Assembly (NCBI GenBank): GCA_937870635.1
Contig: CALMZP010000130.1
Location: 1 to 63,255 of the forward strand
Direction of reading: 5' to 3'
Origin: an uncultured Acidobacteriota bacterium
GTDB lineage: Bacteria; Acidobacteriota; Thermoanaerobaculia; Gp7-AA8
DNA: 63,255 bases
A program made the translations under genes and the position numbers. Below are positions 1-48,604 of this stretch, one piece after another. The first letter of the stretch is position 1. Every line of letters starts with the position of its first letter. The notes beneath the pieces were generated by a model. The model made no database searches. It worked only from the letters and a program-made list of their open reading frames with translations, and was not told the DNA's origin.

Positions 1-73
1 TTCATCCTTCATCCTTCATCCTTCATCCTTCATCCTTCATCCTTCATCCTTCATCCTTCATCCTTCATCCTTC
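1..73. repeat. Heptamer tandem repeat (TTCATCC)n
   Basis: The window opens inside about ten perfect copies of the 7-bp unit TTCATCC. The array is cut by the window edge, so its true length and any inverted partner arm are unseen. It ends against the terminator of the first lipoprotein gene. It belongs to the period-7 repeats seen in many gaps of this window. Confidence 0.95.
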
Positions 74-111
74 AAAAAAAGGGGCGCCCCGAAACCATCC
101 GGGGCGCCCTT
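74..111 (-). terminator. Intrinsic terminator of first lipoprotein gene
   Basis: A GC-rich stem (GGGGCGCCCC pairing with GGGGCGCCC across a loop of about 10 nt) is followed, on the minus strand, by a run of seven T. It lies just downstream of the stop at 130. Confidence 0.85.
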
Positions 112-10539: not shown

Positions 10540-12222
10540 TTATAGGGGTCCGAATCGTACCGGGCCGGGGAGCGACGGCTCCTCCGAGAGAGCTTCTTCG
10601 AGGGTTCGGAGCGAATGCCCGCCGGCCGGCTCGCGGGCCGCTGCGGCGATGAGCGCTTCGACGCCGGCACGGTGCCGCCGATAAAGGGCTTCGGGCAGGG
10701 GCCTCGATACGACACGCGCAAAGGAGAGCACTGCAGCTGTTGCGGCGATCCGCGGCCGCAGGCTGAGGCAGGGCCGGAACGGGCGGGCGATCGCCGGCCG
10801 AAGGATTCTCCGGCTCGCCCGGTTTTTCCGGGCGACGGTCTGCAGGACGCGGGCTCGGTGGCGTTCAGGCAGGAAGAAGACGGCGCGGACGACGGCGCGG
10901 CGCTGCCCGATGCGGTGCGCGCGCCCGTTCCGCTGTTCGATCCGGGCGGGATTCCACGGGAGGTCGTAATGAACGACGATTCCGGCTCTCTGAAGATTCA
11001 ATCCCTCCGCACCCACGTCGGTGGACACGAGGATATCGGCGGCGCCGCGCCGGAAGAGGTCGATCGAGGCAGTGTTCGTATTCTCCCGCCCGGTAACGAG
11101 CACGGTCCGCCGCACCTTTCGCAGCGCCTCGACGATCGAGCGCGCAGTCGCCGCCCATCCTGTGAAGATGAGCATGGGTTCTGTCGTCGCACGACACAAC
11201 TCCAGAAGCAGCTGTTCCTTCTTCCTCGGCAGAGCGGCAACGGCCGCCCGCAGTTCGGTGATGCGCGCGACCGCCCGGTGAATCACGAGGGGATCGATGC
11301 TGTCGTTGTCGCCGACGAAGAGCTCCCAGAAGAGAACGGTCTGGACGGCGGCGACGTCCTCCTCGTGCGCGAACGCGCGCCGATACTCACGCTTGGGAAG
11401 CGCGCGGCCGGAGGCGAGGCATTCCAGCGACCGTTCATAGAAGCGGAGCTGACGGCGCAGGGAGTCGAGAAGCGCCGCTTCACTCGATTCCAGGCGGCGG
11501 AGGAGGAAGTCGCGGACGAGCGGCGCGCCGGCCACAAGCGGAAAATCGAGCGTGGCGATCCTCTCTTCGATTCCCTCGGCCGCGCGATCGGTCCAGACGA
11601 TGCGCCGGTCGATGTCGCCGAACGCGAGCGCTTCAGGGACGACTCTGCGATCGCGGCGCACGACGAGCGCCGATACGATCCGGTCGAGAGCATCGCGGTC
11701 GCGCCGCTCGAACGCCACGTCGATCGACGGAACGCCGTGCATGGCCAGCGCGTCATCGCGGACGACGAGCCGCAGAAGCGATTCGAGATCGCCCGGGCCG
11801 TTGCAGATTGGAGTCGCCGTCACCAGGAGCAGCTTCGCTCCGACCGACCATCGTGCCAGCGCCGTGAAGCGCTGCGTACCGCGGTTCCGGAACACGTGCG
11901 CTTCATCGACGATGATCAGACGCCTGCCCTTCGGCACCTCGTCACCGCGCAGCAGCTCCGTGTGCGTGACGACGGTCGCGTTCACGGCGAATCGGCGGAA
12001 CGTATCGCGCCACTGATCGACGAGGCTCGCCGGGACGATCGCTTCGATCCGTTCATCGCGGATCCAGGCTCGCCGAGCCACTTCCGCAGCCACGTACGAT
12101 TTGCCCAGCCCCGGCTCGTCCGCGAGAATCGCCCCGCCGTGCCGGGCGAGGAGCGGGAGCAGCCTCTCCACAGCATCGAGCTGGTGTTCAGCAAGCAGCG
12201 AGACGTCGCGCAGCGAACGCAC
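10540..12222 (-). CDS. SNF2/SF2-type DNA helicase paired with a methyltransferase
   Basis: The protein has 560 residues. Motif I is ILADEPGLGKSY near residue 38, motif II is VDEAH near 107, motif III is LLVTATP, and the C-terminal motif VI is RNGRAHRIGQRR, all of the SNF2/RapA group. No nuclease domain is visible, and the C-terminal 100 residues are Arg-rich with no known domain. The start overlaps the 3' end of the methyltransferase gene by 35 nt, so the two are made together. Such pairs occur in phage-defence loci (DISARM class 1 combines a SNF2 protein with a methylase), but the other DISARM genes are absent. Role in restriction or defence is an inference. Confidence 0.75.
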   Translation of the reverse strand: MRSLRDVSLLAEHQLDAVERLLPLLARHGGAILADEPGLGKSYVAAEVARRAWIRDERIEAIVPASLVDQWRDTFRRFAVNATVVTHTELLRGDEVPKGRRLIIVDEAHVFRNRGTQRFTALARWSVGAKLLLVTATPICNGPGDLESLLRLVVRDDALAMHGVPSIDVAFERRDRDALDRIVSALVVRRDRRVVPEALAFGDIDRRIVWTDRAAEGIEERIATLDFPLVAGAPLVRDFLLRRLESSEAALLDSLRRQLRFYERSLECLASGRALPKREYRRAFAHEEDVAAVQTVLFWELFVGDNDSIDPLVIHRAVARITELRAAVAALPRKKEQLLLELCRATTEPMLIFTGWAATARSIVEALRKVRRTVLVTGRENTNTASIDLFRRGAADILVSTDVGAEGLNLQRAGIVVHYDLPWNPARIEQRNGRAHRIGQRRAVVRAVFFLPERHRARVLQTVARKNRASRRILRPAIARPFRPCLSLRPRIAATAAVLSFARVVSRPLPEALYRRHRAGVEALIAAAAREPAGGHSLRTLEEALSEEPSLPGPVRFGPL

Positions 12223-15200
12223 GGAGCACCTCGAGCTCGCCGGAACTCAGTTCGAAGAGATCGGCCACCACGGCCTCATGGCCGGCCGGTGCCTCTTTCT
12301 CGCGGTGCGCAATCCGTGACGACCTCACCAGGCGCTGCCACCGCTCCGACCCCGCGGTTGGAAGCGGAAACGGAATCGCCGACACCGTCCGACCGAAGTA
12401 GCGATAGTGATCGTCCTTCGCGCGCTCGGCCACGGCGAGCAGGAGCGCGTCCACCACGACGCTGTTGAGCAGGCCCGCGATGGCATACGCCTCGTCCATC
12501 GTTACAGCGTCAATCGAATACAGCGTCTGGTTGGGCACCAGAGGAAAGCTGTGTCCCGCCACCTCGACGGTCTCGGGGAGGACGGCAGCAGCCATCCCGC
12601 GCGCGACGTCCTTCCAGGCCACCTTGATGCCGACATGCTCTGCGCGAACGTACGACAGCCGCAACACCTCCGGCTCCACGCCGCGCCTGCCGGCCAGCTC
12701 GACGAGCCACGCCGGAAACTGGCTCCATCCCGCCGCGGGCGGCCACAACATCCAGTGGGACTCGCGCGTGGACCAGCGGCGCACGTCGCGCCCTCGCACC
12801 GCGCGGCAGACGAACTCCGTCGGAATCGCCACGCCGTCTGCAGTGGTCAGCCATCCGCAGTCGACCTCGCCAGCCTCGAGAAAGAAGCTCTGGTTGTCGC
12901 CGGTCTTCACGCCCATCACGGGACCGCGTCCGATCGCTTCGTCGAACGGCGGGAAGCGATCGCGCAGCCGCGAGAGGATGTGCGCGACGTCCGGCGGTGC
13001 GAGACTCCATTCCGAGCGGCGTCCGTCGACGGACAGATCGCACGCGGCAATGGCGAACGACTCGCCCGCCGTCCTCACGTCGATCGTGCCGCCATGATCG
13101 CGCTCGCGCTTCGCCACGAGGCCGAGAGGGAATGTGTCCGCGCGGAAGTAGCGCCGCCGCTCAGCGCTCCAGTCGATCAGCGCAGCGACCGTGAGACCGT
13201 CGAAGAGAAACTCGCGCAACGGCGCGGCATACGCGGCGTTGACGATCTTCGCCGGCAGCAGCATGGCGATGACTCCGCCGGGGGTGGTGAGATTCACGGA
13301 GCGTTCTACGAACGCCACGCTCAGGTCGGGCTGGTGTGGGACTCCGGCTCTGATTCGACCTTCGACCTTCGACCTTCGACCTTCGGGATTCCGTGCGCGC
13401 TCGAATCGATTACCGGTTCCGAATGTCGAGCCGTGGCCCTGCCCCTCGGCCTCCGATTCAATCGCAGTTCCGAAGGTCGAAGGTCGAAGGTCGAAGGTCG
13501 AATCACGGTCGAAGGTCGATTCACGACCCCCGAACAACCGGTACCGTTCGCCATACATGCGCCTGGCCACGGGTGGGATACGCGAATGCCGAACCCATGG
13601 CGGGTTCCCGACGACGACATCGAATCCGCCTCCGGCCATGACATGCGCGAAATGCACATCGAACGAAAAGAAATCGACCTCGGCATTTTCCACCCGGTCG
13701 AGGGCCTGACGCGAGAGGGCCAGCCGGTCCTGCAGGGAGCGCGCGTAATCGAGATCGTCCCGGACCGGGTTGCCGAAGAGATCGCGGCGCGGAGCCGTGG
13801 CCAGCTGCAGCTCGCGCTCGTCGGCGTCGATCGATCGCTGCAGAAGGTCGGCGGCGAGGCGGCGATCGTTTGCGCGCACGAGGCGGTAAAGCGCGGGCCG
13901 TTCGTCACGCGGCGCGGAGCGGTATCGCTCGATGAGGTCCTTCTGCGCGCGGATTCCCCACGCCCACTCGCGATAGATGTCGGCGCGGGCGCCGCCCAGA
14001 AAATCGAGAGGGCCGAGCAGCGAGTTTCCCTGCAGGATGTTGCGATCGAGGTTTGGCAGCGGCCGCACATCATCGAGCGAAACGTCACTGCCGGCGACGA
14101 TGGCGAGCCAGAGTCGCAGCTCGCACAACCGCACCGCCTCTGGCTTCAGATCCACGCCGTAAAGTGACCGCTCGATGATGCGGTGGCGGAGGTCGGACGG
14201 CCGGGCCTCACCGAGCGCGAGGACCAAGCGCTCGATGGCATGCATCGCCGAGAGGAGAAACGCTCCCGATCCGCATGCCGGGTCGAGGATCGTCACGTTC
14301 TCGAGGCGGCGAAGGATGTCGGGAGCCTTCTCTGTCACGGGTGCCGCCACTTCTCCGCCGTCGAGGACCGCGAGGAGATCATCGCGGAGCGCGGCATCGC
14401 CGCCACTCGCCCATTCGGCCAGAGCGCGCCTCGTCAGAGTGTCGACAATTTCCCGCGGCGTGTAGAAGCTGCCGCTGACGGCGCGTTCGTCTTCGGCCAT
14501 CAGGCACTCGAAGACCTTGCCCAGCATCTCCGGGTCGACCTGCGTGCCGGCGCCGCCGGTCTCGTCGATCGTGAAGTCGAACTTCTCGAAGACATCCTCG
14601 AGGATCCGGCGCATCAGATCATTGGGAGCGCGCATCGCAGCGTTGCGCCGCTCGAACGGACACGGCTCGAAGAGACCGCCGTTGAGATAGGGGATGCGGC
14701 CGAGGGCGCGGGCAATGTCGTCGCGTTGAGGGGCGGGGGTGTTGAGGCATCCGAAGAAGAGCGGAACCAGCACGGCTCCGAAGAAGTCGATGTCCTGGCT
14801 GCAGCATTGCTCGGCGCGATCGATCAGGAACCGCCGCTCCCCGTTGAGCCATCCCTTTTCCTGGACGAAGCAGAGAAAGAGAAGCCGCGACATGATCAGC
14901 AGCGCTTCATCGGCGACGGCCTCCTCCCGTTCGCCCGGACACGTCGCCACGATCGCAGCCGAGAGCTCGCGGACGGCGGCGCGGAATCTGCCGAAGAACT
15001 GCCGGATGACGAGCTCACGGTCCAGGGCCCGCGCGAAGAGCCGCGCCGGGTCGTCACCGTTGTTCAGGCCGACGAGATTCAGACGATCGACGGCGTGCGG
15101 CGTGGGATTCGTTGTCGAGATGGACGCCCGCCCGGGGAAACGTCCATTCATAGCATGTATCTGGATCGTTTGCAGTTCTCGTTGATATTTAATGACTACT

Positions 15201-15460
15201 GATTCAGTGCACTGATTATAGGCGGCGTAATCAGCGAGAAACTTCGCCGCCGCCGCATCATCGAACTCATCATCGGTGAAGAAGAGATCGAAACGCTCCA
15301 GCCGGGCCAGCAGGGACATGCGTCCCGGCAGCTCGATGCCGCCGCGCTTCCACTCCTCGCGGTCGATCTCGATCGGCTGCACGGGATACCCCAGCGTCCG
15401 GAAAAGCGCGATGACTCCGGCGGAATCGCGGCAGCCTCGGAGGTCGTCCGCGGTGATCAC
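12188..15460 (-). CDS. Eco57I-type adenine-N6 DNA methyltransferase, repeat-invaded
   Basis: The protein has 1090 residues. SAM motif I is ILDPACGSGAFLLSA near residue 395 and catalytic motif IV is VVVGNPPWV near 618, the N-P-P-W form of N6-adenine methyltransferases. FYTPREIVDTLTRRAL precedes motif I as in type I/IIG enzymes. The C-terminal part (from about 850) looks like a target-recognition domain of Eco57I/PglX-like enzymes. No PD-(D/E)xK nuclease was recognised. Residues about 645-702 are encoded by a CGACCTT heptamer element inserted in frame after motif IV. It is followed directly by an overlapping helicase gene. Confidence 0.85.
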   Translation of the reverse strand: MITADDLRGCRDSAGVIALFRTLGYPVQPIEIDREEWKRGGIELPGRMSLLARLERFDLFFTDDEFDDAAAAKFLADYAAYNQCTESVVIKYQRELQTIQIHAMNGRFPGRASISTTNPTPHAVDRLNLVGLNNGDDPARLFARALDRELVIRQFFGRFRAAVRELSAAIVATCPGEREEAVADEALLIMSRLLFLCFVQEKGWLNGERRFLIDRAEQCCSQDIDFFGAVLVPLFFGCLNTPAPQRDDIARALGRIPYLNGGLFEPCPFERRNAAMRAPNDLMRRILEDVFEKFDFTIDETGGAGTQVDPEMLGKVFECLMAEDERAVSGSFYTPREIVDTLTRRALAEWASGGDAALRDDLLAVLDGGEVAAPVTEKAPDILRRLENVTILDPACGSGAFLLSAMHAIERLVLALGEARPSDLRHRIIERSLYGVDLKPEAVRLCELRLWLAIVAGSDVSLDDVRPLPNLDRNILQGNSLLGPLDFLGGARADIYREWAWGIRAQKDLIERYRSAPRDERPALYRLVRANDRRLAADLLQRSIDADERELQLATAPRRDLFGNPVRDDLDYARSLQDRLALSRQALDRVENAEVDFFSFDVHFAHVMAGGGFDVVVGNPPWVRHSRIPPVARRMYGERYRLFGGRESTFDRDSTFDLRPSTFGTAIESEAEGQGHGSTFGTGNRFERARNPEGRRSKVEGRIRAGVPHQPDLSVAFVERSVNLTTPGGVIAMLLPAKIVNAAYAAPLREFLFDGLTVAALIDWSAERRRYFRADTFPLGLVAKRERDHGGTIDVRTAGESFAIAACDLSVDGRRSEWSLAPPDVAHILSRLRDRFPPFDEAIGRGPVMGVKTGDNQSFFLEAGEVDCGWLTTADGVAIPTEFVCRAVRGRDVRRWSTRESHWMLWPPAAGWSQFPAWLVELAGRRGVEPEVLRLSYVRAEHVGIKVAWKDVARGMAAAVLPETVEVAGHSFPLVPNQTLYSIDAVTMDEAYAIAGLLNSVVVDALLLAVAERAKDDHYRYFGRTVSAIPFPLPTAGSERWQRLVRSSRIAHREKEAPAGHEAVVADLFELSSGELEVLRAFAARRLAAC
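13354..13528. repeat. CGACCTT heptamer inverted repeat inside the methyltransferase gene
   Basis: Left arm 13354-13387 holds about four period-7 copies. Right arm 13470-13528 holds inverted copies GGTCGAA, the last partly displaced. The frame stays open across the whole element. The same heptamer occurs in the gap at 59639-59770. Confidence 0.9.
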
Positions 15461-17942: not shown

Positions 17943-18308
17943 TTATTCAGACGCCGTGTTGGAGGGCTTTGGGGCGGCCGGCTTCCCTTTCGGCTTGCGC
18001 GGGCTCTTCACCTTCGACGTCAGCGTCGTTTTGCCGCTGACGGCGACGTAGGCGCTGATCCGCTCGAAGCGCTTGTCACCGAATCCTTTGACCTGCATCA
18101 GGTCCGTCGGCTTCTGAAAGTCGCCGTGCTGGGTCCGGTAGTCGACGATCTGCTGCGCCGCCTTCGCACCAACGCCGGGCAGCAGCGCGAGCTGCGCCGC
18201 ATCGGCTGTGTTGATGTTGACGACGCCGGCAGAGTTGTCCGCGGCAAATGCGGCCGCGGAGAGGGAGAGGAGCGCCAGGGTAACGATGAGGATGTGGGAC
18301 TTCCGCAT
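17943..18308 (-). CDS. comEA: ComEA-like helix-hairpin-helix DNA-binding protein
   Basis: The protein has 121 residues. A signal peptide (HILIVTLALLSLSAAAFA) precedes one ComEA domain: VNINTADAAQLALLPGVGAK, then IVDYRTQHGDF and LMQVKGFGDKRFERI, two HhH motifs that bind double-stranded DNA. A basic Lys/Pro tail follows. ComEA proteins pull transforming DNA into the periplasm, which fits the pseudopilin next door. AAGGAG lies about 11 nt before the ATG. Confidence 0.85.
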   Translation of the reverse strand: MRKSHILIVTLALLSLSAAAFAADNSAGVVNINTADAAQLALLPGVGAKAAQQIVDYRTQHGDFQKPTDLMQVKGFGDKRFERISAYVAVSGKTTLTSKVKSPRKPKGKPAAPKPSNTASE

Positions 18309-18615
18309 AGGGTCTTGTTCTCCTTTCGTTGATCGGTTTGCTTGTTGTTGACGACTGACTGCTTTGGCTGATTCACCACACTGACTTGCCGGTGTTGTTT
18401 GACGTCTTCCTTGACGTCGAATCGCTGTTACTCCGTCATTCCCACCTCCTTTCGGAAGTGCGATGAGTTCAAGCGCACGACCATCGCGTGCGCGACGACA
18501 AGTCGTTGGGACAACGCGAGTTAGAAATTCAGGCGGGATTCGCGCGCGTCAAAAAGATTTGCGCGGCGGCGAGGAGAGAGGAGAATTTTGCTCTATACTC
18601 GAATGCAGGCGCCTC
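18309..18615. other. Divergent intergenic region with unused strong ribosome site
   Basis: On the minus strand AAAGGAGGT (18444-18452) sits 4 nt before an ATG (18439) that opens only a three-codon frame (Met-Thr-Glu-stop), upstream of comEA. On the plus strand TATACT (about 18594-18599) could be a -10 element for the ClpX-like gene. No other gene is seen. Confidence 0.4.
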
Positions 18616-20587: not shown

Positions 20588-20746
20588 GACCTTGGACCTT
20601 GGACCTTGGACGTGCAAGCCACGTCATCCTGAGCCGCGAAGACGGCGAAGGACCTCAAGATACGAAGATCGCGTCGATTGAGACCCTTCGCAGTCTTCGC
20701 TGCTCAGGGTGACGTGAAGGTCCAAGGTCCAAGGTCCAAGGTCCAA
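20588..20746. repeat. Nested repeat: GGACCTT heptamer arms around GTCATCCTGAG inverted repeat
   Basis: Heptamer copies at 20588-20611 and inverted copies at 20717-20746 flank an inverted repeat at 20623-20713 (GTCATCCTGAGC ... CTCAGGGTGAC). This shows two repeat classes nested symmetrically. No gene is present. Confidence 0.9.
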
Positions 20747-28321: not shown

Positions 28322-28401
28322 GTATTAGGGATTTTGGATTTTGGATTTTGGATTTTGGTCGGGTGGTGGCAATCCAAAATCCAAAATCAAAAATCCAAAA
28401 T
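28322..28401. repeat. TTTTGGA heptamer inverted repeat
   Basis: About four copies of TTTTGGA face inverted AAAATCC copies between lpxD and the skp terminator. Same element class as 7648-7712 and 48556-48604. Confidence 0.88.
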
Positions 28402-48555: not shown

Positions 48556-48604
48556 GATTTTGGATTTTGGATTTTGATCAAATCCAAAATCCAAAATCCA
48601 AAAT
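48556..48604. repeat. TTTTGGA heptamer inverted repeat
   Basis: Two to three TTTTGGA copies face inverted AAAATCC copies between convergent genes. A likely bidirectional hairpin terminator. Confidence 0.88.

Follow-up and report, generated by a model that had tools for sequence, protein, structure and literature searches.

A heptamer-armed palindrome in frame in an adenine methyltransferase gene of an uncultured acidobacterium, probably one copy of a dispersed lineage-specific family

We analysed a stretch of 63,255 nucleotides (the window), which is contig C130 of a 4.52-Mb genome that is 98.7% complete. The G+C content of the window is 63%, and the closest protein matches come from metagenome-assembled Thermoanaerobaculia and other Acidobacteriota. 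Two overlapping genes on the minus strand and an insert within one of them are the subject of this analysis (positions are those of the window):

10540–12222, minus strand: gene for a SNF2-type helicase, which overlaps the methyltransferase gene at the latter's end; relatives show the same pair in synteny
12188–15460, minus strand: gene for an Eco57I / type IIG-like N6-adenine DNA methyltransferase of 1,090 amino acids, open across the insert
13354–13528, minus strand: whole insert, at protein level codons about 645–702, a net gain of 56 amino acids over the closest homologue
13354–13385, minus strand: gene-3' heptamer arm, whose gene strand is (CGAAGGT)4.6 and encodes EGRRSKVEGR
13386–13470, minus strand: 85-bp core separating the arms, present once in the genome
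13471–13502, minus strand: gene-5' heptamer arm, whose gene strand is (TTCGACC)4.6 and encodes STFDLRPSTFG; it is 100% complementary to the arm at 13354–13385
13503–13528, minus strand: partial second copy of the heptamer block on its outer side, with an 18-nt imperfect direct repeat (13489–13506 / 13507–13524)

The methyltransferase open reading frame runs for 1,090 codons with zero internal stops. Its product carries the motifs DPACGSGAF and NPPW (the latter at residues 619–622), matches the Pfam Eco57I profile and the type IIG models of PADLOC, and finds CamA, MmeI and BsaXI among solved structures. As to type IIG membership, the N6-adenine methyltransferase motifs are present and the best PADLOC type IIG model aligns from residue 146 on, with no nuclease domain identified. 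The enzyme is encoded by 19 of 19 genomes of the order (18 besides the source genome). In related contigs, the methyltransferase-helicase pair sits in the same neighbourhood, adjoined by a phosphodiesterase-like gene; several of these contigs also have a gene for a sigma-54 regulator. The two genes therefore form a core pair rather than a roaming island. The methyltransferase gene is a vertically inherited, syntenic core gene, and its enzyme is predicted to be still active. The pair (10540–15460) also gives DISARM/type IIG-like profile matches, outside any island context.

The initial annotation described about 175 bp of CGACCTT arms inserted in frame after the NPPW motif of an adenine methyltransferase gene. 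The element is where it was placed: the heptamer arrays occupy 13354–13385 and 13471–13502, and the insert starts 22 residues past NPPW. Its composition has to be amended, however, as the arms amount to two 32-nt CGACCTT / AAGGTCG arrays of 4.6 units each, 100% complementary, around an 85-bp non-repetitive core. A partial copy at 13507–13524, 94% identical to 13489–13506, brings the gene-5' end of the element to about 13528. As DNA, the hairpin greatly exceeds shuffled sequences in stability (z −9.1); as RNA of the gene strand it scores z −8.4. Codons about 645–702 encode the peptide GRESTFDRDSTFDLRPSTFG...NPEGRRSKVEGR, which is probably unstructured. The AlphaFold model of the methyltransferase is poor (pTM 0.34), so that the pLDDT of 22–28 over the insert is weak evidence of disorder.

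Uninterrupted homologues, to which the initial annotation had proposed to compare the gene, do exist: the insert is absent from 18 of the 18 other genomes of the order, all of which carry the methyltransferase gene. Homologue alignments break off at residue ~646 and pick up again at ~706, for a net gain of 56 residues over the closest homologue (63–64% identity; 64% after the insert). The loop at this site differs in length between homologues, and in the CamA structure (7lni) it is 7 residues shorter than the profile. A variable-length loop combined with absence from homologues points to a lineage-specific insertion; nor does the segment recur as an ordinary domain of distant homologues, the outcome that the initial annotation had named as contrary to its idea, so that the element is an insertion rather than a domain. 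At the DNA level the homologues are too diverged to define an empty site or a target-site duplication.

The open frame over about 58 residues, with its S-T-F-D and V-E-G-R type repeats, was correctly observed but weighs little, as five of the six frames through the 175-bp insert are stop-free. CGACCTT has zero stops in any frame. As 7 and 3 are coprime, a heptamer array yields one and the same seven-residue cycle whatever the frame, here RPSTFDL on one strand and KVEGRRS on the other, neither containing a stop. The open frame is therefore not evidence of selection. Codon statistics of the insert (−0.06, versus 0.25 for the remaining gene) resemble those of non-coding DNA, as expected for inserted DNA. 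Overall, arrays strongly avoid genes and are mostly intergenic: by our home-made gene calls, 60 of 233 array midpoints (26%) fall within coding sequences, compared with 87% coding. By the same calls, arrays well inside coding sequences are made of units stop-free on both strands in 19 of 21 cases (Fisher p 0.026).

Hundreds of heptamer-built hairpins are scattered through this acidobacterial genome. Exact arrays were counted in 717 kb, composed of stretches mostly picked for carrying CGACCTT arrays, so that this selection leaves only the counts of the remaining units unaffected. We found 209 arrays of period 7, whereas no other period between 4 and 13 gave more than 8; a further 61 arrays of period 14 in the same 717 kb derive from heptamers. 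Unit groups are few, the leading ones being AAAATCC, AAGGTCG and AACCGTT. Polarity is fixed in the SGAYYYT...ARRRTCS pairs, with the pyrimidine-rich arm first in 54 of 54; for AACCGTT pairs both arm orders occur. The end phases of the arms are largely fixed. The pattern (SGAYYYT)3 has 628 matches in this genome versus 4 for the reversed control, and among 147 other genomes of the class most have none and one has 114. Arm length ranges from about 2 to 11 units across copies. Lengths within pairs correlate weakly (Spearman 0.11, p 0.36), on which ground co-copying of the arms, as judged from equal lengths, was dropped. Arrays of 8 to 19 units were also seen at the start or end of contigs or stretches (window 1–74; L060 15942–15997; L200, of relative G018, 18291–18417; L202 1–134). 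Those of the window, L060 and L200 are contig ends; assemblies break in long arrays, so the longest ones are under-counted.

The 85-bp core of the methyltransferase copy has no second occurrence in the genome. This fits poorly with simple copying of a fixed element, and led us to reject a fixed mobile element whose core is conserved. Nor do the copies share the fixed internal sequence of a MITE: different cores are enclosed by the same arms, and a single core is found with five arm units. The latter, a ~90-nt palindromic core (CACGTCATCCTGAGCCGCGAAG...), was found inside arms of five different heptamer units, indicating that arms and cores are modular. Its copies lie at:

Window 20588–20746: ~90-nt palindromic core
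Stretch L063, 15657: ~90-nt palindromic core
Stretch L067, 6328: ~90-nt palindromic core
Stretch L064, 13088: ~90-nt palindromic core
Stretch L069, 10108: ~90-nt palindromic core
Stretch L077, 16158: ~90-nt palindromic core

Several copies show two-level nesting, with GGACCYT units outside and CGACCTT units inside. Separately, the AAAATCC hairpins have loops down to 1–12 nt, form near-perfect palindromes and lean to gene ends. Short-loop examples are:

Window 28329–28388: AAAATCC short-loop hairpin
Window 48556–48604: AAAATCC short-loop hairpin
Stretch L065, 7059: AAAATCC short-loop hairpin
Stretch L069, 4378: AAAATCC short-loop hairpin
Stretch L077, 1684: AAAATCC short-loop hairpin

Transcription termination was set aside as a general role, as AAAATCC leans to gene ends (4 convergent, 1 divergent) and the other families do not clearly do so. 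Several other candidates were likewise discarded. A known RNA family was dropped after the window gave no Rfam match, and a reverse-transcriptase-templated origin was ruled out in this genome, where no match to RVT_1 was found. A REP-type Y1 transposase was rejected as the driver: this genome has 3 copies, many relatives nearly devoid of SGAYYYT arms have more, and transposase numbers do not track arm load across genomes.

Further copies of the element occur in other proteins. In a malate synthase gene (L065 9866–9961, on contig C109 of this genome) a copy lies in frame, adds 21 amino acids and reads with the same arms (STFDLRPSTFG...EGRRSKVEGR). It occupies the linker between the TIM barrel and the C-terminal domain and is absent from 14 of 14 aligned homologues. 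Other in-frame copies were found in a hydrophobic membrane-protein-like open reading frame, in a GWxTD-domain protein and at the N-terminus of a glycogen-branching enzyme-like protein. The insert peptides recur in unrelated proteins.

We consider it likely that the methyltransferase insert is one copy of a dispersed, lineage-specific family of heptamer-armed palindromes, tolerated in frame in a loop of the enzyme. A palindrome with tandem-heptamer arms (CGACCTT / AAGGTCG) and a variable core would have entered the loop just past motif IV (NPPW), and a stop-free core together with a net length divisible by three would let the copy persist in the gene as an added, probably unstructured, peptide. 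Since arrays of this heptamer read as stop-free seven-residue cycles in any frame, suitable copies can persist within genes. The element itself may be neutral or selfish. A broader reading, which we put forward as speculative and rather unlikely, is that such hairpins form a so far unrecognised modular class, with lineage-specific 7-nt arms, fixed polarity, largely fixed end phase and exchangeable cores, which would arise by a process working in a 7-nt register, be active across several phyla and, on landing in genes, add peptides to conserved proteins.

The initial annotation had suggested that gain or loss of units could switch the gene on and off. Slippage in the arms would then add or drop heptamers, shift the frame and switch methylation, with any coupled restriction, as at a contingency locus. 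The underlying arithmetic is sound: changes of 21 bp in either direction keep full length and changes of 7 or 14 bp truncate the product at 662–768 amino acids. One unit gained or lost in either arm ends the protein at 669–768 amino acids and three units leave it at full length, so a switch is physically possible; arm lengths, moreover, vary among the copies in this genome. Phase variation is known for type IIG enzymes with repeat tracts, as in Campylobacter cj0031c, where a homopolymer (polyG) tract has observed ON/OFF variants (PMC4889913), and Haemophilus alters HMW1A expression through heptamer arrays (PMC8262952). The gene studied here resembles cj0031c in being type IIG-like and in carrying a repeat tract where a shift would truncate the product; it differs in that the tract consists of heptamer arms and not of a homopolymer with observed ON/OFF variants. 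We nevertheless judge switching of this methyltransferase to be improbable. Its arms have 4.6 units each, compared with 13–24 in the HMW1A constructs (PMC8262952), and it is a syntenic core gene. The family is genome-wide, mostly intergenic and inserted in frame in metabolic housekeeping genes as well, such as malate synthase, so that the location in a methyltransferase needs no special role. As many heptamers are stop-free in any frame, an in-frame heptamer tract is not automatically a phase-variation switch.

We give an equally small chance to a degrading insertion, by which the element would have abolished methyltransferase function and left the frame open by chance. Most insert frames would be open regardless, the hairpin within the methyltransferase mRNA is strong (z −8.4), and the insert comes after the catalytic motif. 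The gene, however, retains 1,090 codons free of stops and frameshifts, both the DPACGSGAF and NPPW motifs, and 64% identity to the closest homologue past the insert. The gene could be decaying, the comparison being limited to homologues that include no close relative. It is very improbable that the 56 residues gained a role, for example by changing how the enzyme contacts DNA or selects its target close to the catalytic site: the insert does follow shortly on motif IV, which holds the flipped adenine in CamA (PMC8187626), but all homologues lack the segment, its codon statistics are those of non-coding DNA, and unrelated proteins contain the same peptides. We also see hardly any likelihood of an assembly artefact in this metagenome-assembled genome, for although long heptamer arrays break assemblies at contig ends (window 1–74; L060; L200; L202), the 32-nt methyltransferase arms are below usual read length and the insert is interior to a 63-kb contig, within an intact syntenic open reading frame.

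The preferred reading, a tolerated copy of a dispersed palindrome family, can be set beside several known systems. Rickettsia palindromic elements (RPEs) are ~150-bp palindromes that interrupt unrelated genes in frame and are retained as extra peptide (Ogata 2000, 2002, reviewed in PMC10969869); RPE families have a conserved peptide, and nearly half are located in genes (PMC10969869). The heptamer palindromes likewise occupy unrelated genes in frame and persist there as added peptide, but their arms are tandem heptamers and most copies are intergenic. In place of the internal sequence or peptide common to RPE copies we find shared arms around a unique 85-bp core. The P6b stem of the Nostoc trnL intron has heptamers on both sides, variable unit number and seemingly interchangeable units, TDNGATT in class I and NNTGAGT in class II (PMC4476775), and by analogy is the closest structural precedent. 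Both systems have heptamer-built stems; TTGGATT, the commonest unit here, fits class I, and GCTGAGT/CCTGAGT units of relatives fit class II, both matches having been noticed post hoc. P6b is a single intron stem, whereas this acidobacterial genome has hundreds of dispersed hairpins, some of which lie within proteins.

Tandem 7-nt units at many, mostly intergenic loci are also what characterizes STRR-like repeats of cyanobacteria. Heptamer direct repeats occur genome-wide as GGGAATC in Xanthomonas and GGGGAYT in Nostoc (PMC4692102), and TAACTGA arrays in Beggiatoaceae, Cyanobacteria and Bacteroidetes, with one inverted case reported (PMC4679880). The family described here shares with them dispersed, mostly intergenic arrays of few units but differs in that its arms are paired, with fixed polarity for the main unit groups. 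Heptamers are over-represented among bacterial simple repeats, on which there was no detailed literature at that time (PMC4692102); according to a proposal related in PMC4679880, 7 nt reflects polymerase contact length. This over-representation has been noted without an accepted reason, and the combination of paired, polar, modular arms, clean in-frame copies in conserved genes and many uninterrupted homologues offers a place to test both the spread of heptamers and the origin of new protein segments.

Relatives have heptamer hairpins of their own units, again mainly of period 7, as seen in stretches selected for carrying such arrays (L190–L196 of genome G009, L183–L189 of G111, L197–L198 of G143 and L200–L201 of G018). 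The units are ACCCTCG, AAAATGC and ACTCAGC in G009, ACTCTCG in G111 and AAAATCG/AAAATCC in G143. Several CGACYCT-type arms in G009 and G111 have the opposite polarity.
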